NCBI RefSeq assembly: GCF_040796495.1
Contig: NZ_JBFNQN010000001.1
Location: 372,001 to 436,000 of the forward strand
Source of the DNA: Kineococcus endophyticus
Lineage (GTDB): Bacteria; Actinomycetota; Actinomycetes; Actinomycetales; Kineococcaceae
Length of the DNA stretch: 64,000 nt
Direction: 5' to 3'
In this document: positions 1-39,400 of the stretch, piece after piece
Position numbering within the stretch: the stretch's first letter is position 1
Layout: each line of letters starts with the position of its first letter
Translations under genes and position numbers: made by a program
Notes under the pieces: model-generated
Told to the model about the DNA's origin: nothing
What the model saw: only the letters and a program-made list of their open reading frames with translations
The model's database searches: none

Positions 1-195
1 ATGTTGTGGACTTGCAGCGGCGGGTTTCTTGACCCTCCTTGCTGTGATCGAAACATTGTCGTCAGCTGCGATGGCGGAGGAGTCGTGCAGGGGACGCGCG
101 GCGCTGGCTGGGTTTGCGTCGAGCACCAAGACCAGGGGGGCGGACAGGAGCACTGTCGAGATGTGGACCCGGAGGCGGTTGAGGTGCAATGTCAC
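1..195 (-). CDS. Secreted protein, N-terminal part only (runs off left edge)
   Basis: The minus strand reads open from a GTG at 195 to the window edge, giving 65 residues. The start MTLHLNRLRVH is basic and is followed by a hydrophobic core (STVLLSAPLVLVL) and an ANPASA-A cleavage-like site, so this looks like a Sec signal peptide of about 32 residues. The mature part seen is short and not recognisable. The start overlaps the stop of the upstream DUF6318 gene by four bases (GTGA), so the two are probably translationally coupled. Codon use is less GC-biased than in the rest of the window. The function is unknown; the signal peptide is the only solid inference. Confidence 0.55.
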   Translation of the reverse strand, partial: MTLHLNRLRVHISTVLLSAPLVLVLDANPASAARPLHDSSAIAADDNVSITARRVKKPAAASPQH

Positions 196-848
196 TCAAC
201 CTCCAGCGCCATCCAGTGTCCTTGCTGCCAGACGACTTCCATCCAGAACTCGGAGTCGGGGGCGGCTTCATCAGAGCTGATCATCGAACCATTTCGGTCG
301 AACGTGTTGTATGCCGGTCGATCGACAGTGACCGTGAGTTTCGCGTAGTCAGATGCTGGATCCCATGCGTCGATGCTCGTGCCGGTGAACTGCAACACGA
401 ACTGAGGAGTTGTGTACCCCTTCTCGCGGTACTCGTCGATGACGTCCGAGTAGAACCTGCATCCGGTGCACGACTCGACCGAGATCGAACGCAAGGTCGA
501 TGAGTCAGCCGTTTCCCGAGCGTGGTTGAGGACGCGTAGGAAGTATGCAGCGAAGAGGCTTGCTCCAGTTTCGTCCTGCACTTTGGCGCGCTCATCCAGC
601 GTAGGGACAGAAACTCCTGCTGTCGCGGGAGAAAGAGTCGGGTCGTCCCTCATCTCGGGCGTTCTGGTGGCCTGCGCGTCGCCGTGCTCGTGGTGAGTTC
701 CCCCAGGTGTCGAGGCCGCTGTCGAGGTCGCCGCCGCGGCGGGTGCCGGGGCCGCCGGCGCCTCCTGCGAACACCCCGCGAGCAGGCCGGCGAGGGCGAG
801 GCCGGCGGCGGTCGCGACGAGGGGGCGGGCTGGGATCACGCCAGGCAC
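192..848 (-). CDS. DUF6318 family lipoprotein
   Basis: This encodes about 218 residues. A signal peptide ends in a lipobox LLAGC (Cys about 26), so the protein should be lipid-anchored outside the membrane. An Ala/Thr/Pro-rich spacer with a His-rich patch (HHEHG) follows. The conserved part begins at PTLDERAK and continues through FAAYFLRVLNHA, a CTGC pair and FYSDVIDEY. This arrangement matches actinobacterial DUF6318 proteins, whose function is not known. The start is GTG at 848, with an alternative in-frame GTG at 839. The 3' end overlaps the next minus-strand gene, also exported, by four bases. GC content in the 192-600 part is visibly lower than in neighbouring genes. Confidence 0.8.
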   Translation of the reverse strand: MPGVIPARPLVATAAGLALAGLLAGCSQEAPAAPAPAAAATSTAASTPGGTHHEHGDAQATRTPEMRDDPTLSPATAGVSVPTLDERAKVQDETGASLFAAYFLRVLNHARETADSSTLRSISVESCTGCRFYSDVIDEYREKGYTTPQFVLQFTGTSIDAWDPASDYAKLTVTVDRPAYNTFDRNGSMISSDEAAPDSEFWMEVVWQQGHWMALEVE

Positions 849-989: not shown

Positions 990-1020
990 TTGACGCGTCC
1001 TGAGGGCGGTGGTGTAGCTT
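990..1020 (+). promoter_or_regulatory. Probable promoter of the translesion block
   Basis: TTGACG (990-995) and TAGCTT (1015-1020) are separated by 19 bases and resemble -35 and -10 elements of a housekeeping sigma factor. The predicted transcription start, near 1027, falls just before the SOS box, so a bound LexA would cover the initiation region. This is read from the sequence only. Confidence 0.5.
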
Positions 1021-1030
1021 CGAGATGTGT

Positions 1031-1046
1031 TCGAACCGGTGTTCGA
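1031..1046. promoter_or_regulatory. LexA-binding SOS box
   Basis: The sequence TCGAAC-CGGT-GTTCGA is a perfect match to the known actinobacterial/Gram-positive LexA operator core TCGAAC-N4-GTTCGA. The symmetry extends one or two bases further on each side (tgttcgaac / gttcgaaca). It lies directly downstream of the -10 element and about 150 bases before the DUF6504 start. It predicts damage-inducible expression of the genes up to DNA polymerase IV. Confidence 0.85.
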
Positions 1047-1196
1047 ACATGATGAGACCGCTCGAGGCGCGGTCCGGGGAGAGGGGAAGCTCCGCGGGCC
1101 GCGCCCCGAGTGCGTGCTCGCGAGCCGCTTCCCCCGGCTCGCCGCACCGCGCGCTCCGCCGCGGTGCCGGCTCGAGACAGGGGAAGGGTGACGACG

Positions 1197-1613
1197 GTGC
1201 GACGGTTCTCCGACGCGGTGCACGTCCGCTACGGCGATGCGGACGAGGGGGAGGAGACCCCCGTGCAGTTCATCTGGCGCGGGCGGCTCTACGTCGTCCG
1301 CGAAGTCCTCTCCCGCTGGCGCGAGCGCAGCGCCTGGTGGGAGCACGCGGCCGTGGCCGCTGTCCACGGTGACGTCACCGACTCCGACGCCACCGGCCCG
1401 GGCGGGCGGCCCGCCCGCCGCCGCGTCCTCGAGATCGGCGACCTCGAACGCGAGGTCTTCCGCGTCGAGGCCAGCGTCGGCCGGGCGGGCGGCGCCGGCG
1501 TCTACGACCTCGCCCGCGCCGTCGCCCCGGGGACGGCGGCCGTGTCGGAGGTCGCTGGTACCTCTTCGTCCGAAGCGTCGGGGGACTGGCAGCTGCTGCG
1601 CGTCAGCGACTGA
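1197..1613 (+). CDS. DUF6504 family protein
   Basis: A small cytoplasmic protein of about 138 residues. The motif FIWRGRLYVVREVLSRW followed by WWE is the core of DUF6504, which is commonly found beside translesion polymerase genes in actinobacteria. Its biochemical role is unknown. The GTG at 1197 is preferred because AGGGGA at 1179-1184 then sits at Shine-Dalgarno distance; the in-frame GTG at 1188 is an alternative three codons longer. It is the first gene after the SOS box and is followed after 45 bases by the HEPN gene. The C-terminal 40 residues are Ala/Ser-rich and probably disordered. A part in DNA repair is inferred from context. Confidence 0.75.
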   Translation: MRRFSDAVHVRYGDADEGEETPVQFIWRGRLYVVREVLSRWRERSAWWEHAAVAAVHGDVTDSDATGPGGRPARRRVLEIGDLEREVFRVEASVGRAGGAGVYDLARAVAPGTAAVSEVAGTSSSEASGDWQLLRVSD

Positions 1614-1658: not shown

Positions 1659-2096
1659 ATGCCCACCACCTTCGACGTCCCTGCGGGCGTCCCGCGCCCG
1701 CTGACGACGGCCGCCCTCGACCTCCTCGCTCGCTGCGAGGACGAGCTGATCGCGGCGCTGCGCACGGACGACGTCGCCGAGCGCTACGTCCACGCCCACC
1801 TGGCCGCCCTGCGGGCCGGGGCCGCGATCGTCGCCGTGCACGGCCGGCCCGCCCGCGGCCGGCGCAGCGGGGGGCCGCGCAGCGTCTGGGAGATGCTGCC
1901 CGCCCTCGACCCGGGCCTGCAGGAGTGGGCCGACCGGTTCGCCGCGACGGCCGCGGTCCGGTCTGCGGTCGAGGCCGGCCGCACCGGGGTCGTGGACGCC
2001 GCGGCCGCCGACGACCTCCTGGCCCACGCCGAGCAGTTCCACCGCGTCGTCGAGGTCACGCTCGGTCTCAGCGCCCTCCAGCCGCTCGCCGGCTGA
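1659..2096 (+). CDS. SAV_6107-type HEPN domain protein
   Basis: A helical protein of 145 residues. The segment CEDELIAAL...ERYVHAHLAALRAGAAIV carries an R-X4-H pair (Arg42, His47), the signature of HEPN domains, many of which are RNases or nucleotidyltransferase partners. The SPRSVWEMLP-like stretch (RSVWEMLPALDPGLQEWADRF) and the C-terminal FHRVVEVTL helix match the SAV_6107 subfamily found with actinobacterial DnaE2-type polymerases. The start is ATG behind a strong GGAGGAG. It sits between DUF6504 and the DnaE2-like gene in the SOS-box block. Whether it has nuclease activity cannot be judged from sequence. Confidence 0.75.
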   Translation: MPTTFDVPAGVPRPLTTAALDLLARCEDELIAALRTDDVAERYVHAHLAALRAGAAIVAVHGRPARGRRSGGPRSVWEMLPALDPGLQEWADRFAATAAVRSAVEAGRTGVVDAAAADDLLAHAEQFHRVVEVTLGLSALQPLAG

Positions 2097-2185: not shown

Positions 2186-5100
2186 ATGACCACCCTCGCT
2201 CCACCCGCCGCACCGTTCCCGCACCTGCACGTCGCCTCGGGGTACTCCCTGCGGTACGGCACCTCCACCCCCTCCGCCCTCGTGGCCCGGGCCGCCGACC
2301 TCGGCATGCCCGTCCTGGCGCTGACCGACCGCGACGGCCTCTACGGCGCCGTGAAGTTCGTCCGCGCCTGCGGTGAGGCCGGTCTGGCTCCCGTGCTCGG
2401 GGTCGACCTGGCCACCACCCCGACGGGGCTGGCCGACGGTCTGCCCGCCTGGGCCGATCCCTCCGTCGCGGTGCGCCGCACGGCGTCCCGCGCCCCGGTC
2501 CGCGGTGGGGCGGCCGTCGACCTCAGGCTCCCGCGCGTCACCGTCCTGGCCCTCGGGGCCGATGACGCCGGAGCGGGACGGGGCTGGGCGGCGCTGTGCC
2601 GACTGGTGAGCGCCACCCACCTCGGCGGGGAACGGGGCACCCCCGTCAGCAGCCTCGACCTCGTCGCCGCCCACGCGGGCGGCTCCGACGGCCGCCCTTC
2701 ACTGGCGGTCCTGCTCGGGCCGGGGTCCGAACTCGGCCGGGCACTGCTGGCCCGCCGGGAGGACCTCGCCCACGCGGTCCTGCGCCGGTGGCGCGAGGTG
2801 CTGCCGGCTGGCTCGCTGCACGTGGAGGTGGTCTGCCACCACGCCCCGCCGGGCACGGCCGGCAGCGTCGAGCACGCCGCCCGGATGCTCTCCTTCGCCC
2901 GCGCCGCAGGGGTTCCGGCTGTCCTGACGGCCGCCGTCCGCTCGGCCGGGCCGGACGGCGGCCTGACCGCCGACCTGCTCGACGCGGTCCGCCGCCTCGT
3001 GCCGCTCGACACCCGGCACACCGACCGGGTCAGCGGGCAGGGCCACCTCCTGCCCAGCGTCGACATGGTCCGCACCGCGGCCGACGTCGCCCACGCCGTC
3101 GGCGACCCGTCCGCGGCCGCCGACCTGCTGACCACCACCGCCGGGCTCGCCGCCCGCGCCGTGCAGGACCCGGCCACCGACCTCGGCATCGGGGGACACC
3201 ACCTGCCCGACCCCGAGGCGCTCGGGCTGACCCGCGACACCGACCAGGACGCGGTCCTGCGCGCCCGCTGCGAGGCCGGGATCGCCCGCCGGTACCCGGG
3301 GGCGGACCTCAAGGGAGAGGCGAAGGTCCTGCGCCGCCTCGACGACGAGCTCGACATCATCCGCAAGGTCGGGTTCGCCAGCTACTTCCTCACCGTCGCC
3401 GACGTCTGCGACCTCACCCGCTCGATGGGCGTCCGGGTCGCCGCCCGCGGGTCCGGGGCCGGCAGCCTCGTCAACCACCTGCTGCGCATCTCCGACGTCG
3501 AACCCCTCGGGCACCGGCTGCTCATGGAACGGTTCCTCAACCCGCGCCGCGGGCAGCTGCCCGACATCGACCTCGACGTCGAGTCGGCCCGCCGCGAGGA
3601 CGTCTACGCGGCGGTCCTGGACCGCTTCGGCGGCGACCGCGTGACGTGCGTGTCGATGATGGACAGCTACCGGGTCCGCCACGCCGTGCGGGACGTCGGT
3701 GCGGCGCTGGGACTGCCCCCGGTGGAGGTCGACGCCATCGCCACCGCGTTCCCGCACCTGCGGGCCCGCGACGCCCGCAACGCCATCGCCGAACTGCCCG
3801 AGCTGCAGCGCAGCGGGCTGGGTGAGGAACGCCTCGACGTGTTCTTCGACCTCGTCGAGCGCCTCGACGGTCTGCCCCGCCACATCGCCCTGCACCCCTG
3901 CGGCGTCGTGCTGTCCAACCCCGCGCTCATGGACCGGACTCCCGTGGAGGCCAGCTGGAAGGGCTTCCCCATGAGCCAGTTCGACAAGGACGACGTGGAG
4001 GACATGGGGCTGCTCAAGCTCGACGTCCTCGGGATCCGGATGCAGTCCGCCATGGCGTACGCGGTGCAGGAGATCGCCCGGGTCGAGGAGACGGACGTCG
4101 ACCTCGACGACCGGGCGCAGGTCCCGCTCGACGACCCGGCGACCTACAAGCTCATCCAGTCCACCCGCACCCTCGGCTGCTTCCAGATCGAGTCCCCGGG
4201 CCAGCGCGAACTCGTCGGCAAGTTCGGGCCGCAGACCTTCGACGACATCATCATCGACATCTCCCTCTTCCGGCCCGGGCCGGTGAAGTCGGACATGGTC
4301 ACGCCCTTCCTCAAGGCCCGGCAGGGCTGGACCGCACCGCAGTACCTCGACGACCGGCTCAAGCACGTCCTCGAACCCACCTGCGGCGTCGTCGTGTTCC
4401 ACGAGCAGGTCATCGAGCTCATCCAGGCCACGACCGGCCACGACCTCGCACTGTCCGACGAGTACCGCCGCCACCTCGGCACCCGCGCCGGCCAGGAGGA
4501 GATGGAACCCCAGTTCCGCCGCGGGGCCCTCGAGCACGGCTACCCCGAGGAGACGGTGGACCGGATCTGGGCGGTGCTCAAGGCGTTCGCCTCCTTCGGC
4601 TTCTGCAAGGCGCACGCCGCGGCCTTCGCCCTGCCGACCTACCAGTCGGCCTGGCTCAAGACCCACCACCCGGCGGCGTTCCTCGCCGGGGTCCTCACCC
4701 ACGACCCCGGCATGTACCCCAAGCGGCTGATCCTCGACGACGCCCGCAACCTCGGGATCGCCGTCCTGGGCCTGGACGTCAACGCCTCCGGCGACACCTA
4801 CCGGGTGGAACGGGTCGACCCGCCCGACCCGCTCGTCGCCGGCGACCCCGAGAACCTCGACCCCTGGCTCGGTGGCCGGGGTGTGCGCAACCCCGACGGG
4901 CTCGGCGCCGGGGTCGCCGACGGCACGGGGTTCGGCATCCGCCTGTCCCTCACCGACGTCAAGGGGATCTCCGAGGCGGAGGTGGCGCGGATCGTCGCCG
5001 GTCAGCCCTACCGGTCGCTGGCCGACCTGTGGCAGCGGGCCCGCCCGTCCCGCCCGGTGACCGAGCGACTCGTCCTCGCGGGCGCGCTGGACTCCCTGCA

Positions 5101-6196
5101 CGGGATGCGTCCCGTCGGCCGCGCCGGGGACGCCGTGCCGCGCCGGGGTCGGACCACGCGGCGCGACCTGCTGCTGCAGGTCGCCGAACTGGACCGCTGG
5201 AGCCGTTCCGCGGGCACCGCCCCGGCGCGGGCGAGCGCCCGGCAGGTCCGCAGACCGATCGACGCCCGCGCCCTGGAGGGCGGGTCGGGGGGCCGGACGC
5301 TCGACGTGCGCGCGGCCGCGGCCTCGCAGTCGCAGGCCGCGCGGCCCGTCGACGACTCCGCCCGCACGGTGCAGCTGGCCCTCGACCTCGGCGACGCCCC
5401 CGAGGAGGTCGCGCTCAGCGGGCTGCCGGACATGACCGGTCCCGAACGGGTCCGCGCCGAGCTCGACGTGCTCGGGTTGGACGCCAGCGCCCACGTCGTC
5501 GACTTCTACACGCCGCTGCTGCGGGCGCTGCGGGTCACCCCGGCCCGCGACCTGCGCTCCCAGCGCAGCCGCGCCGAGCTCCTCGTCGCCGGGGTGAAGG
5601 TCGCCACCCAGACACCGCCCGTCCGCTCAGGGCGCCGCGTCGTCTTCCTCACCCTGGACGACACGACCGGCCCGCTGGACGCCACCTTCTTCGAGGACGC
5701 CCAGGGTCCGTACGCGGCGACGGTGTTCCACTCCTGGCTGCTCGTCGTGCGGGGCGTGCTGCGCCGGACCGGCCCGCGCGGGGTGTCCTTGCGGGCCACG
5801 GGCGCCTGGGAGCTGCCGGCCCTGTGGGACGCCTGGACCGCCGGCGGGATCGAGGCCGTCCACGAGCTGATCGCCACGGCCCCGAACCCCGAGTACTCCC
5901 GCGCCGCGACGGAGGGTGCGGCCGCGAGCCGGTCGAGCCGACCGGTCGTCGCGAACCCGCCCGCCGGCGCCCCCACGCACCTGGAGGAGCACGGCTCGGC
6001 GGCCGGGGGGATGGGGCGGCGGCGCGTCCTCGTGCACGCCAGCGGTTTCCGGCAGTCGCCGTACGCCGACCTCAAACCGGCGGGGGAGGACACCCGCAAC
6101 TCCCGCTCCATCGGCCGGGCCGCCGCGGCGCAGCCGTCCGACAGCGCACCGGAGCGCAAGCTCTGGCACTCCAGCTCCGGCAGCTCGGGGAGGTGA
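2186..6196 (+). CDS. DNA polymerase III alpha subunit, error-prone DnaE2-like
   Basis: This 1336-residue C-family polymerase has a PHP domain at about 10-250, the palm with the catalytic motif PDIDLD (460-464), a helix-hairpin-helix-type segment at about 925-975 and an OB-fold at about 1125-1215. In the PHP domain HVASGYS and LTDRDG replace the HVHTEYS and TTDHGF of the replicative DnaE at 36470, so metal ligands are lost and proofreading by this domain is unlikely. The start is ATG at 2186 behind AGAAGGA. The C-terminal 60 residues form a tail ending KLWHSS-GSSG. With the SOS box upstream and Pol IV downstream, a role in damage-induced translesion synthesis is likely. It is longer than most DnaE2 proteins, so orthology to dnaE2 is not certain. 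Confidence 0.85.
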   Translation: MTTLAPPAAPFPHLHVASGYSLRYGTSTPSALVARAADLGMPVLALTDRDGLYGAVKFVRACGEAGLAPVLGVDLATTPTGLADGLPAWADPSVAVRRTASRAPVRGGAAVDLRLPRVTVLALGADDAGAGRGWAALCRLVSATHLGGERGTPVSSLDLVAAHAGGSDGRPSLAVLLGPGSELGRALLARREDLAHAVLRRWREVLPAGSLHVEVVCHHAPPGTAGSVEHAARMLSFARAAGVPAVLTAAVRSAGPDGGLTADLLDAVRRLVPLDTRHTDRVSGQGHLLPSVDMVRTAADVAHAVGDPSAAADLLTTTAGLAARAVQDPATDLGIGGHHLPDPEALGLTRDTDQDAVLRARCEAGIARRYPGADLKGEAKVLRRLDDELDIIRKVGFASYFLTVADVCDLTRSMGVRVAARGSGAGSLVNHLLRISDVEPLGHRLLMERFLNPRRGQLPDIDLDVESARREDVYAAVLDRFGGDRVTCVSMMDSYRVRHAVRDVGAALGLPPVEVDAIATAFPHLRARDARNAIAELPELQRSGLGEERLDVFFDLVERLDGLPRHIALHPCGVVLSNPALMDRTPVEASWKGFPMSQFDKDDVEDMGLLKLDVLGIRMQSAMAYAVQEIARVEETDVDLDDRAQVPLDDPATYKLIQSTRTLGCFQIESPGQRELVGKFGPQTFDDIIIDISLFRPGPVKSDMVTPFLKARQGWTAPQYLDDRLKHVLEPTCGVVVFHEQVIELIQATTGHDLALSDEYRRHLGTRAGQEEMEPQFRRGALEHGYPEETVDRIWAVLKAFASFGFCKAHAAAFALPTYQSAWLKTHHPAAFLAGVLTHDPGMYPKRLILDDARNLGIAVLGLDVNASGDTYRVERVDPPDPLVAGDPENLDPWLGGRGVRNPDGLGAGVADGTGFGIRLSLTDVKGISEAEVARIVAGQPYRSLADLWQRARPSRPVTERLVLAGALDSLHGMRPVGRAGDAVPRRGRTTRRDLLLQVAELDRWSRSAGTAPARASARQVRRPIDARALEGGSGGRTLDVRAAAASQSQAARPVDDSARTVQLALDLGDAPEEVALSGLPDMTGPERVRAELDVLGLDASAHVVDFYTPLLRALRVTPARDLRSQRSRAELLVAGVKVATQTPPVRSGRRVVFLTLDDTTGPLDATFFEDAQGPYAATVFHSWLLVVRGVLRRTGPRGVSLRATGAWELPALWDAWTAGGIEAVHELIATAPNPEYSRAATEGAAASRSSRPVVANPPAGAPTHLEEHGSAAGGMGRRRVLVHASGFRQSPYADLKPAGEDTRNSRSIGRAAAAQPSDSAPERKLWHSSSGSSGR

Positions 6197-6256
6197 CGAG
6201 CGAGGTGGTGAGCGAGGTGACGGCGGAGGTGCACGGGCGCGCCGGGACGGGGTGTC

Positions 6257-6262
6257 TAGGGT
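6257..6262 (+). promoter_or_regulatory. Possible -10 element before the methyltransferase gene
   Basis: TAGGGT in the 130-base gap after the DnaE2-like gene resembles an actinobacterial -10 box and lies about 65 bases before the methyltransferase start. No clear -35 partner is seen. It may give the last two genes of the block a second promoter. Confidence 0.25.
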
Positions 6263-6326
6263 GGAGGCGCGCAGTGCCGGACGCACCACACCCGGCACGG
6301 GGAACCGCACGAGGCTGGAGGAACGA

Positions 6327-7070
6327 GTGGCGAAGGAACGGGGCCGCCCCCGCACGTCGACGGTCCTCTGGGAGGGGGTCCAGCGACTGCTCGCCGCCGC
6401 GAGCGCGGACCTGGGCACCACCGAGCTCACCGTGGTCGACCTCGGTGGTGGCACCGGTGGTCTCGCCGTGCGCGTGGCTGCCCTCGGGCACCGCGTCGTC
6501 GTCGTCGACCCCTCGCCCGACGCACTCGCGGCGCTGGAGCGCCGCACGGCGGAGGCCGGTCTGTCGGACCGGGTCCGGGCGTTGCAGGGGGACGCGACCG
6601 AGCTGTCCGCCCTCCTCGCCCCCGGCAGCGTCGACGTGCTGCTCTGCCACGGGGTCCTCGAGGTCGTCGACGACCCCGCTGCCGCCCTGCGCGCCGCCCA
6701 CGAGACCCTCCGCCCCGGCGGGCGGCTCAGCCTCCTCGTCGCCCAGTGGCCGGCGAGCGTCCTGGCCCGCGTCCTGGCCGGTCAGCTCGGGCAGGCCCTG
6801 CACGTCCTGTCCGGCGAGGAGCACCGCTGGGGTCCGAGCGACCCGCTGTGCCGCCGGTTCGACCGTGCCGGGGCCACGGCGCTCGCCGAGCAGGGCGGCT
6901 TCACCGTCACCGCGGTCGAAGGCACCCGGACGTTCAGCGACGTCGTGCCGTCCGCCGTCACCGAGTCCGACGACGCCCTCGCCCTGCTGCGGGAGCTGGA
7001 GTCGCGCGCCGCGGGGACCGAGGAGCTGCTCGCCCTGGCCGCGCACCTGCACCTGCACGCCACCCGCTGA
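6327..7070 (+). CDS. Class I SAM-dependent methyltransferase
   Basis: A protein of 247 residues with a Rossmann-type methyltransferase fold. Motif I is VVDLGGGTGGLAVRVA, followed by VVVVDPSPDAL (acidic end of strand 2), LQGDATEL, and VDVLLCHGVLEVVDDP with LRPGGRLSLLVAQ downstream. These are features of small-molecule or tRNA-type class I enzymes; the substrate is not evident. The GTG start at 6327 follows CTGGAGGA. The gene lies between the DnaE2-like polymerase and Pol IV. No target-recognition domain is present, so it is unlikely to be a restriction methylase. Confidence 0.85.
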   Translation: MAKERGRPRTSTVLWEGVQRLLAAASADLGTTELTVVDLGGGTGGLAVRVAALGHRVVVVDPSPDALAALERRTAEAGLSDRVRALQGDATELSALLAPGSVDVLLCHGVLEVVDDPAAALRAAHETLRPGGRLSLLVAQWPASVLARVLAGQLGQALHVLSGEEHRWGPSDPLCRRFDRAGATALAEQGGFTVTAVEGTRTFSDVVPSAVTESDDALALLRELESRAAGTEELLALAAHLHLHATR

Positions 7071-7103: not shown

Positions 7104-8330
7104 GTGAGCCGCCGGCAACTGGTCCGCCCCGACCCCTCCACCGGGTGGGGCCTGGACGACGACGACACCGGGTGCACGGTGCTGCACGTCGACATGGACG
7201 CGTTCTACGCCTCCGTGGAGCTGCTGCGCCGGCCCGACCTCGTCGGCACCCCCGTCATCGTCGGCGGGGGCGACCGCGGCGTCGTGCTGTCGGCCACCTA
7301 CGAGGCCCGTCGGTACGGCGTCCACGCCGCGATGCCGATGGCCCGCGCCCGCCGCCTGTGCCCGACCGCGACCGTCCTCGTGCCCCACCACGAGGACTAC
7401 GCGCGGATCTCGGCGGGTGTCATGGAGGCGTTCCGCTCGGTCACCCCCGTCGTCGAACCGCTCAGCCTCGACGAGGCGTTCCTCGACGTGTCCGGCGCGG
7501 TCCGCCGGCTCGGCAGTCCCGCCCGGATCGGGCAGCTCCTGCGCGACCGGGTCGCCGACGAGCAGGGCATCACCTGCTCGGTCGGGGTGGCCTCGACGAA
7601 GTTCGTCGCCAAGCTGGCCTCCGGCGGCGCCAAGCCCGACGGCCTGCTGGTCGTCCCGCACGCCCAGACGGTCGCCTTCCTGCACGCCCTGCCCGTCGAG
7701 GCGCTGTGGGGGGTCGGTGAGCGCACCGCCGAGGCGCTGGGGCGGCTCGGGCTGCGCACGGTCGCCGACATCGCCCACACCCCCGTCACCACGCTGGTCC
7801 GCGGGCTGGGGGAGGCGACCGGCCGGCACCTGCACGCCCTGGCCTGGGGGCGGGACGAGCGGCGCGTCGTCGCCTCGGTCCCCGAACGCAGCATCGGTTC
7901 GGAGGAGACGTTCCCCCGCGACGTCGACGACCCCCGCTACGTGCACCGCGAGCTGCTGCGCCTGGCCGAACGGACCGCCTCCCGGGCCCGGGCGCAGGGG
8001 ATGGCCGGACGGACGGTCGTCCTGAAGGTGCGCTTCGCCGACTTCACGACGATCACCCGGTCCCGCACCCTGCGCGAACGCACCGACGTGACGCGGGAGA
8101 TCCACGCCACCGCCCGGGACCTCTTCGACGCCCTGGCCCTGGACCGGGCCCGGTTGCGGCTCGTCGGGGTCCGGCTGGAGGGGCTGGCGGACTCGGCGAC
8201 GGCGCCGCGCCAGCTGGTCCTGGGGGAGCGCGCCCACGGCTGGCGCGACGCCGACGGCGCCGTGGACCGGGCCGGCGCCCGCTTCGGTGCCGGCAGTGTG
8301 AGACCTGCCACCCTCCTGACCCGCCGTTGA
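7104..8330 (+). CDS. dinB: DNA polymerase IV (Y family)
   Basis: A 408-residue translesion polymerase. The two catalytic acidic motifs are intact: HVDMDAFYASVE (Asp30) and LSLDEAFLDVS (Asp123, Glu124). SVGVASTKFVAKLAS and the thumb helix-hairpin-helix LWGVGERTAEALGRLGL follow, and the little-finger domain occupies about 255-365. The C-terminus ends in an Arg/Ala-rich tail without an obvious QLxLF-type clamp motif, although RQLVLG at about 369 could serve. The start is GTG, 33 bases after the methyltransferase. It closes the SOS-box block, and no separate imuB-like inactive Y polymerase is present. Confidence 0.93.
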   Translation: MSRRQLVRPDPSTGWGLDDDDTGCTVLHVDMDAFYASVELLRRPDLVGTPVIVGGGDRGVVLSATYEARRYGVHAAMPMARARRLCPTATVLVPHHEDYARISAGVMEAFRSVTPVVEPLSLDEAFLDVSGAVRRLGSPARIGQLLRDRVADEQGITCSVGVASTKFVAKLASGGAKPDGLLVVPHAQTVAFLHALPVEALWGVGERTAEALGRLGLRTVADIAHTPVTTLVRGLGEATGRHLHALAWGRDERRVVASVPERSIGSEETFPRDVDDPRYVHRELLRLAERTASRARAQGMAGRTVVLKVRFADFTTITRSRTLRERTDVTREIHATARDLFDALALDRARLRLVGVRLEGLADSATAPRQLVLGERAHGWRDADGAVDRAGARFGAGSVRPATLLTRR

Positions 8331-8542
8331 GGGAGAGCCCGACCGCCCACTCGGACGGCGCACGCCTCTGACCTGCGGTGGAACCGGGGACGACCCTGCG
8401 TCGTTCTCCCGTTCGAGGGACGAGACACGCCAACTGCGCCACAGCACGACCTCGTGTGAGGGACGATGTGGTAAGTCGAGTTTCGCCCATCGCCGCGGGG
8501 TCGTAGTCTTGAACAACAACGTGCGCACGCCAGGAGGTACAG

Positions 8543-36469: not shown

Positions 36470-39400
36470 ATGGCGTCCCCGTCCTCGTCAGCGGACTCGT
36501 TCGTCCACCTGCACGTCCACACCGAGTACTCGATGCTGGACGGCGCGGCCAAGGTGGACGACCTCTTCCGGACCGCCGCCGAGATGGGCATGCCCGCCGT
36601 CGCGACGACCGACCACGGCTTCGTCTTCGGGGCCTACGACTTCTGGAAGACGGCGAAGAAGCACGGGGTCAAGCCGATCATCGGCGTCGAGGCGTACCTC
36701 ACGCCGGGGACGGCGCGCCAGGACAAGACGCGCGTGAAGTGGGGCGACCCCAACGGCCGCTCGGGGGACGACGTCTCGGGTGCGGGGTCCTACACCCACA
36801 TGACGATGCTGGCCGAGAACACGACCGGTATGCACAACCTGTTCAAGATGAGCAGCCTGGCGAGCCTGGAGGGCTTCCTCTACAAGCCCCGCATGGACCG
36901 CGAGCTGCTCTCGCAGTACTCCTCCGGGCTCATCGCCACGACGGGCTGCCCGTCGGGGGAGGTGCAGACGCGGCTGCGCCTGGGCCAGTACGACGAGGCC
37001 CGCAAGGCAGCGGCCGAGTACCGCGACATCTTCGGCAAGGACAACTTCTTCTGCGAGCTGATGGACCACGGCCTCGACATCGAGCGCCGCGTCCAGGACG
37101 ACCTGCTCAAGCTCGCCAAGGACCTCGACCTGCCGCTGCTGGCCACGAACGACCTGCACTACACCCACGCCGGCGACGCGGCGGCGCACGCGGCCCTGCT
37201 GTGCGTGCAGTCCGGCTCGACGCTGGCCGACCCCAAGCGCTTCAAGTTCGACGCCGACGAGTTCTACCTCAAGAGCCCCGCGGAGATGCGGCACGTCTGG
37301 CGCGACCACCCCGAGGCCTGCGACAACACGCTGCTCATCGCCGAGCGCTGCGAGGTCGAGTTCACCGAGTCCACCGGCGCGTACATGCCGCGCTTCCCCT
37401 GCCCGCCGGGGGAGGACGAGGAGAGCTGGTTCGTCAAGGAGGTCTGGTCGGGCCTGGCCCACCGCTACGAGGGGCAGATCCCCGACGACGTCCGCAAGCA
37501 GGCCGACTACGAGATCGAGGTCATCACCTCCAAGGGGTACGCGGGGTACTTCCTCGTCGTCGCCGACTTCATCAACTGGTCGAAGGAGAACGGCATCCGG
37601 GTGGGTCCGGGCCGTGGGTCCGGCGCGGGGTCGATGGCCGCGTACGCCATGAAGATCACCGACCTCGACCCGCTGCGGCACGGCCTGTTCTTCGAGCGGT
37701 TCCTCAACCCCGAGCGCATGTCGATGCCCGACTTCGACGTCGACTTCGACGAGCGCCGGCGCGGTGAGGTCATCCAGTACGTCGTCGAGAAGTACGGCAC
37801 CGACCGCGTCGCCCAGATCGTCACCTACGGCACGATCAAGGCCAAGCAGGCCGTCAAGGACTCCTCGCGCGTCCTCGGCTTCCCCTTCTCGATGGGGGAC
37901 CGGATCACCAAGACGATGCCCCCGGCCGTCATGGGCAAGGACATCCCGCTCTCGGGCATCTTCGACCCCAACCACAAGCGGTACTCCGAGGCCGGGGAGT
38001 TCCGCGAGCTGTACAAGTCCGACCCGGAGGTCGTGAAGGTCGTCGACACCGCGCGGGGCCTGGAGGGCCTGAAGCGGCAGTGGGGCGTGCACGCGGCCGG
38101 CGTCATCATGTCGAGCGAGCCGCTGATCGACCTCATCCCGATCATGAAGCGCGAGGCCGACGGCGCGATCATCACGCAGTTCGACTACCCGACGTGCGAG
38201 ACGCTCGGGCTGGTCAAGATGGACTTCCTCGGCCTGCGGAACCTGACGATCCTCGACGACGCGCTGAAGAACGTCGTCGCCAACGGCAAGGACGAGGTCG
38301 ACCTCGAGAAGCTCGACCTCGACGACCAGGCGACGTTCGACCTGCTCGGCCGGGGCGACACGCTCGGCGTCTTCCAGTTCGACGGCGGCCCCATGCGGTC
38401 GCTGCTGCGCCTCATGCGCCCGGACAACTTCGAGGACATCTCCGCCGTCGGCGCGCTCTACCGCCCCGGTCCGATGGGGGCCGGGTCGCACACCGCGTAC
38501 GCCCGGCGCAAGAACGGCCAGGAGCCGATCACCCCGATCCACCCCGAGCTCGAGGAACCCCTGAAGGAGATCCTCGGCACGACCTACGGCCTGATCGTGT
38601 ACCAGGAGCAGGTCATGTCGATCGCGCAGAAGGTCGCCGGGTACTCCCTCGGCAGCGCCGACCTGCTGCGCCGCGCGATGGGCAAGAAGAAGCGCGAGGT
38701 CCTCGACGCCGAGTACGTGGGCTTCGAGAAGGGCATGCTGGACAACGGGTTCAGCAAGGAGTGCGTCAAGGCGCTGTGGGACATCCTCGTCCCGTTCTCC
38801 GACTACGCCTTCAACAAGGCCCACTCCGCGGCCTACGGCCTCGTCTCCTACTGGACGGCCTACCTCAAGGCCAACTACCCGGCCGAGTACATGGCCGCGG
38901 TGCTCACCTCGGTGCGCGACGACAAGGACAAGTCGGCGCTGTACCTCAACGAGTGCCGCCGCATGGGCATCAAGGTGCTCCCGCCGGACGTCAACGAGTC
39001 GAGCGCGAACTTCACGGCCGTCGGCACCGACATCCGCTTCGGCCTCACCGCCATCCGCAACGTGGGCGCCAACGTCGTCGACGCCATCGTGGAGGCGCGC
39101 ACCGAGAAGGACCGCTACGAGTCCTTCCAGGACTTCCTCACCAAGGTGCCGGCCGTCGTCTGCAACAAGCGGACGATCGAGTCGCTCATCAAGGCGGGCG
39201 CGTTCGACTCCCTCGGGCACCGGCGCCGCGCGCTCGTCGCCAAGCACGAGGACGCCGTCGACGCCGTCGTGGACGTCAAGCGCAACGAGGCCATCGGCCA
39301 GTTCGACCTCTTCGCCGGCCTCGGCGGCGGGGACGACGGCGGCGGCACGGGGTTCGAGGTCGTCATCCCCGACGTGCCGGAGTGGGAGAAGGCCGAACTG

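Follow-up and report, generated by a model that had tools for sequence, protein, structure and literature searches.

The 64,000-nucleotide stretch of Kineococcus endophyticus DNA analysed here (the window, from a host genome, G000, of 5.04 Mb) carries an operon of five genes, which encode a DUF6504 protein, a SAV_6107-like HEPN protein, the error-prone C-family DNA polymerase DnaE2, a class I SAM-dependent methyltransferase-like protein and the Y-family DNA polymerase IV DinB, preceded by a promoter, an SOS box and a long, structured leader (Table 1). In seven relatives all five genes lie in the same order, and a DUF3040 gene comes after dinB. Among named genomes, the nearest relatives of the DUF6504 protein are found in Kineococcus vitellinus and K. 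rubinsiae. The methyltransferase-like protein, assigned by its sequence motif, has no match in Pfam or NCBIfam. The genome yielded two Y-family genes and no third; the catalytic motifs of both are intact.

Table 1. Features of the dnaE2 operon and its control region, in window coordinates
Feature	Position	Strand	Details
-35 hexamer TTGACG	990..995	+	Same in 10/10 family genomes
Place of PafBC-type -26 element (TGTCRGYG)	999..1006	+	8 nt ahead of the -10; in the window CCTGAGGG (4/8, degenerate)
-10 hexamer TAGCTT	1015..1020	+	19 nt past the -35; TANNNT and 19-nt spacing kept in 10/10 family genomes
LexA operator (SOS box) TCGAAC-CGGT-GTTCGA	1031..1046	.	Perfect arms, extended to 1028-1049
Leader hairpin B (HP-B)	1060..1111	+	Stem of 20 bp, interrupted by small internal loops; loop AGGGGAAG at 1082-1089
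Leader hairpin C (HP-C)	1120..1142	+	Loop CTTCCCC (RNA CUUCCCC) at 1128-1134, complementary to 1083-1089
DUF6504 protein	1188..1613	+	Start GTG 1188 or GTG 1197; PF20114, E=3e-19
SAV_6107-like HEPN protein	1659..2096	+	PF18726, E=2e-30
dnaE2, error-prone C-family DNA polymerase	2186..6196	+	
TGTCTAGGGTGG block, probable internal promoter for methyltransferase-dinB	6253..6264	+	-10 TAGGGT
Class I SAM-dependent methyltransferase-like protein	6328..7070	+	Sequence motif VVDLGGGTGGLAV
dinB, Y-family DNA polymerase IV	7104..8330	+	NF003015, 399.5 bits, above cut-off; catalytic residues HVDMDAF, SLDEAF

The DUF6504 protein is probably a stand-alone subunit resembling the C-terminal part of ImuB, by analogy with actinobacterial DnaE2 systems described as having a stand-alone ImuB-C and an active PolY and lacking ImuA/ImuB (PMC12926913; PMC6511836). 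If so, the operon would be of the DnaE2B-[ImuB-C]-PolY-RecA kind (PMC12926913): dnaE2, a small subunit and a Y-family polymerase with catalytic motifs again share one cluster, and no ImuB was seen in the genome, whereas the HEPN protein, methyltransferase and leader RNA of the present operon were not found in the accessible passages of that account. A real ImuB C-terminus run against Pfam had no match, and hence no link to DUF6504; DUF6504 was also matched in Caulobacter, among the control genomes, and had no relative in a PDB search.

The promoter consists of two hexamers separated by 19 nt, with the SOS box beginning 10 nt past the -10 hexamer, exactly as the initial annotation had placed them. 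Its further claim, that the box is an exact LexA operator, agrees with all sequence tests run: all 12 half-site bases are present, the arms are longer by three bases on each side (TGTTCGAAC at 1028-1036 and GTTCGAACA at 1041-1049), and the core CGAACN4GTTCG has a single zero-mismatch match in the 64-kb window. A consensus promoter scan of the control region returned no match because it allowed spacers of 16-18 nt only, and the control region had no match when searched against plasmids. Across the host genome the core pattern occurs at 31 sites, compared with one for the reversed control pattern, and the full 16-mer at only five of these, including the lexA site and another in front of a radical-SAM gene, a gene type listed as an SOS target in Streptomyces venezuelae (PMC9380542). 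The genome has one LexA, at C5:101122, whose own exact operator (C5:100403) lies between nrdR and lexA. Two more exact 16-mers were noted, at L031 (G000:C22:12886) and L004 (G000:C1:343722). Divergent from the operon runs a DUF6318 lipoprotein-like gene (192-839, minus strand), with the SOS box some 190 bp ahead of its start, and LexA could also touch this gene.

A single exact core site is by itself moderately unusual at most, and it is phylogenetic footprinting that decides. Twelve family genomes were searched, ten of which hold the DUF6504 gene, and in all ten the 12 half-site bases stand at the same place; beyond the family, at the levels of order and class, 11-12 of the 12 box bases are found in 91 leaders, and in a second, separately scanned collection, which may share some species with the first, at least 11 of 12 are present in 58 of 59 loci. 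Judged from these alignments, a chance origin of the conservation of the SOS box can be regarded as excluded, and LexA control of DUF6504-HEPN-dnaE2 as near certain. That actinobacterial dnaE2 is under LexA is already published, as is this type of operon. In S. venezuelae, LexA binds dnaE2 and the adjoining dinP, with mitomycin C induction of 30.6-fold and 13.7-fold (PMC9380542). The operator there is like the present one in its 16-bp palindrome TCGAAC-N4-GTTCGA, the polymerase family targeted and its position in the promoter, but is made up of two boxes, neither of them perfect, that lie 68 bp ahead of the start of dnaE2, whereas here one perfect box precedes DUF6504-HEPN-dnaE2 together with a long structured leader.

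The 19-nt spacing, whose meaning the initial annotation overlooked, matches the layout of PafBC-type promoters found in relatives. The PafBC motif is published as TGTCGG-N10-TA-N3-T (PMC8151990; PMC6789036), and many relatives resemble the mycobacterial PafBC/RecA-NDp promoters in having TGTCRGYG-N8-TANNNT, with a LexA box just downstream; the window differs in keeping the spacing only, since a search for this promoter there found a degenerate -26 element. Among the 72 relatives whose box is preceded by a -10, TGTCRGYG is present at 7-8 of 8 positions in 24 and at 6 or more in 37 at the exact offset, against 0-2 and 0-7 relatives, respectively, at shifted offsets, a contrast to which picking the best -10 contributes somewhat, though not at the scale observed. 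The -26 element plus the LexA box at these promoters suggests that PafBC activation and LexA repression may be joined at one promoter in many Actinomycetes. Seven loci of family f37 (L174, L187, L189, L190, L191, L194 and L201) have no exact SOS box before HEPN and share a block, TTGTCAGTGGCATACC, that resembles a PafBC site.

Tight LexA repression had initially been predicted for everything as far as Pol IV, a prediction that stands for DUF6504-HEPN-dnaE2 and probably does not hold in full for the methyltransferase and DinB. In the gap between dnaE2 and the methyltransferase gene, the -10-like TGTCTAGGGTGG block is strictly kept in 8 of 8 genomes compared and is probably a second promoter that would supply these two proteins independently of LexA, so that we expect LexA to control the first three genes tightly and methyltransferase-dinB partially. 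We therefore doubt the original view of all five genes as one transcription unit governed by LexA only: it fits their collinearity in relatives and the induction of both dnaE2 and dinP in S. venezuelae (PMC9380542), but is at odds with the conservation of the internal block. Moreover, two papers describe that dinP as coding for a polymerase that is inactive and belongs to a different group (PMC6511836; PMC12926913), and its induction there is therefore no proof for the DinB here. Farther on, a promoter-like block that is conserved (in relatives, CGAGTTTCG...GGGACATATCC) lies before the DUF3040 gene at window positions 8455-8515, and DUF3040 is thus probably a separate transcription unit.

From the SOS box to the first gene there are 140 nt, likewise overlooked in the initial annotation, in which the control-region alignment has conserved blocks. 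The two hairpins of this leader, B and C, belong to a fold that stands out against shuffled sequences (z-score -5.1 for 1027-1200 and -4.2 for 1060-1150), and their loops, GGGGAAG in B and CUUCCCC in C, are exactly complementary over seven bases and invariant in 10 of 10 family genomes. No U-rich intrinsic terminator was found in the leader, and a leader peptide with an uninterrupted conserved frame seems unlikely because leader lengths vary among relatives by non-multiples of three. In Rfam 15 no family reached its gathering score in the window or in 16 relatives; the best weak match, to mraW RNA (RF01746; 22.1 bits against a gathering score of 50, minus strand), arises because the loop of that RNA is ACUUCCCC. 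Like the present leader, mraW RNA is an actinobacterial cis-element hairpin, with a loop resembling that of HP-C, but it is a single hairpin associated with other genes and matched on the opposite strand. Matches to GGGGAAGC at 37392 and 37878, both within the dnaE1 coding sequence, were rejected as chance. The literature consulted, open-licence papers and so weak evidence of absence, held no dnaE2 leader RNA and none of the loop sequences, and the leader RNA is apparently undescribed so far.

The structure of the leader is well supported by comparison with relatives, from which we also infer that it has a function. In the family alignment (A2), 97.2% of cells are paired, with double changes at six pairs, and RNAalifold recovered both HP-B and HP-C; in the broad alignment of B-C (A4), 88.9% are paired versus 73.7% after shuffling, and covariation is 0.412 versus 0.141 (0 of 500 shuffles). 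Run on A4 with no structure supplied, RNAalifold recovered HP-B, with 11 of its 13 pairs doubly changed, and did not recover HP-C. Longer leaders are common in other families and contain a hairpin A (loop (A)CUCGACCC), then B (UGGGGAAG), then C ((C)CUUCCCC), with stem sequences that vary among families and pairing that is preserved. For hairpin A of relatives, 80.4% of cells are paired versus 49.9% after shuffling and covariation is 0.715 versus 0.237 (0 of 500 shuffles), and an independent arm-swap test gave 0.887 versus 0.519, a somewhat favourable comparison in that the observed hairpins, unlike the swapped ones, had their loop edges optimised. Tandem copies of hairpin A, two per leader, occur in L091, L100 and L103 as CUCGACCUCGACCCUCGAG and GGUGACCUCGACCCUCGCC or close variants. 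Some relatives have leaders shorter than 60 nt and no leader RNA (e.g., L054, L064 and L137), and the RNA is thus not essential for this operon type.

A covariance model of B-C (R3), which has the window leader among its training sequences, matched that leader in the host genome (HP-B region 1060..1111) with E=1.7e-4, the next best site scoring 1.4. Applied to 247 genomes of the class, it gave matches in 28, nearly always one per genome and chiefly in mutasome leaders, and in the second collection it matched 18 of 59 loci. Many actinobacterial families have the B/C loop pair in their mutasome leaders. An SOS box and A-B-C precede HEPN in family f29, and an SOS box and the RNA do so in family f53 (G193 and G287), where the order, traced in full in G287, is SOS box, RNA, HEPN, ImuA'-like, ImuB-like and DnaE2. 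Ahead of HEPN-ImuA'-ImuB-DnaE2, loop C reads CUUCCUC, and its pairing with GGGGAAG is retained through one G-U. Since the leader stands before both DUF6504-DnaE2 and ImuA'-ImuB-DnaE2, it goes with mutasome operons of both compositions.

Similar hairpins also occur elsewhere. HP-B-like hairpins (loop AGUGGGGAAGCU) lie, with no SOS box, between nrdR and nrdJ, the gene for class II ribonucleotide reductase, in two genomes (G146 and G222; L152 at 1501-1566 and L158 near 1501), the former locus having a C-like hairpin as well. Others lie upstream of rpfB-like genes for DUF348 proteins in two families (L166 and L169, both near 1501; G135 and G365; E-values 0.025 and 0.010), again with no SOS box. 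The E-values of 0.01-0.025 at three of these four nrdJ and rpfB-like sites make them leads; as such, B-like hairpins before these genes indicate that the element is not specific to mutasomes.

Conservation of the operator and promoter, covarying stems, invariant complementary loops and recurrence before mutasome genes are what can be read from the sequence, and together they make it likely, in our estimation, that a mutasome operon regulated by LexA is controlled here at two levels, LexA-gated transcription followed by a kissing-loop leader; that LexA binds at this site, that the loops do kiss and how the leader acts are what we infer from them. LexA dimers on 1031-1046, over the transcription start, would block the TTGACG-19-TAGCTT promoter until DNA damage brings about RecA-driven cleavage of LexA and frees it. 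The first 160 nt or so of the transcript would then be a leader folded into hairpins B and C, and the GGGGAAG loop of the one could pair with the CUUCCCC loop of the other in a 7-bp kissing complex. The folded leader probably adds the second layer of control, most likely at the level of mutasome mRNA translation, stability or read-through, and may thereby limit or time expression of DUF6504-HEPN-dnaE2, either to provide the right amount of polymerase or to make it depend on a second signal.

The kissing pairs are nearly invariant and so display hardly any covariation, and invariant loops could equally reflect a protein or a trans-RNA target. The main rival to kissing is thus that the loops dock a trans-acting factor, an RNA-binding protein or small RNA, shared with the leaders of nrdJ, rpfB and perhaps mraW, a possibility that we hold in reserve as the less probable of the two. 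Some relatives carry A alone, B alone or C alone, and it is in keeping with a trans-acting partner that HP-B is by itself in L048, L051 and L065 and before nrdJ (L158), that C is by itself in several relatives, and that mraW RNA has the loop ACUUCCCC. Against it, B and C occur together far more often than apart (both in 29 leaders, B only in 10, C only in 5 and neither in 47, counts from related loci, for which a Fisher value should not be read literally), their spacing is mostly 35-50 nt, and a change in the C loop keeps the pairing through a G-U.

A translational switch, in which the CUUCCCC loop would mask the Shine-Dalgarno sequence GGGGAAGG (1181-1188) in competition with HP-B, strikes us as improbable. 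In the window, GGGGAAG does lie within the Shine-Dalgarno sequence, which is paired with the C loop in the minimum free energy structure predicted for 1027-1200, but GGGGAAG occurs in this region in only about 4 of 10 family genomes, versus 10 of 10 in the B loop; masking was therefore rejected as a general mechanism for want of conservation and is possible in the window. Less probable still is a plain LexA-controlled operon whose leader hairpins merely provide a stable 5' end, for although GC-rich leaders fold stably anyway and some relatives dispense with the leader, invariant loops within freely changing stems across many families would not be expected of it.

Returning to the kissing leader, we incline, by a modest degree, to regard it as representing an undescribed class of cis-regulatory RNA in Actinomycetes, with loops CUCGACCC, UGGGGAAG and CUUCCCC (kissing between the second and the third), which would exert post-transcriptional control, coupled to a second signal, on SOS-induced mutasome operons and possibly on nrdJ and rpfB.

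Induced mutagenesis in Actinobacteria is driven by error-prone DnaE2 mutasomes, whose control has so far been described as transcriptional, through LexA and PafBC. The SOS box of the present operon is in itself ordinary, and what looks new is the 5' leader, a compact and readily mutated element whose loop complementarity permits a direct compensatory test. The occurrence of the -26 PafBC element with the LexA operator in many relatives likewise provides a testable rule for how two damage pathways may meet at one promoter. If the proposed role of the leader is true, its presence in both DUF6504-DnaE2 and ImuA'-ImuB-DnaE2 operons would mean that the mutagenic response is limited post-transcriptionally as well.
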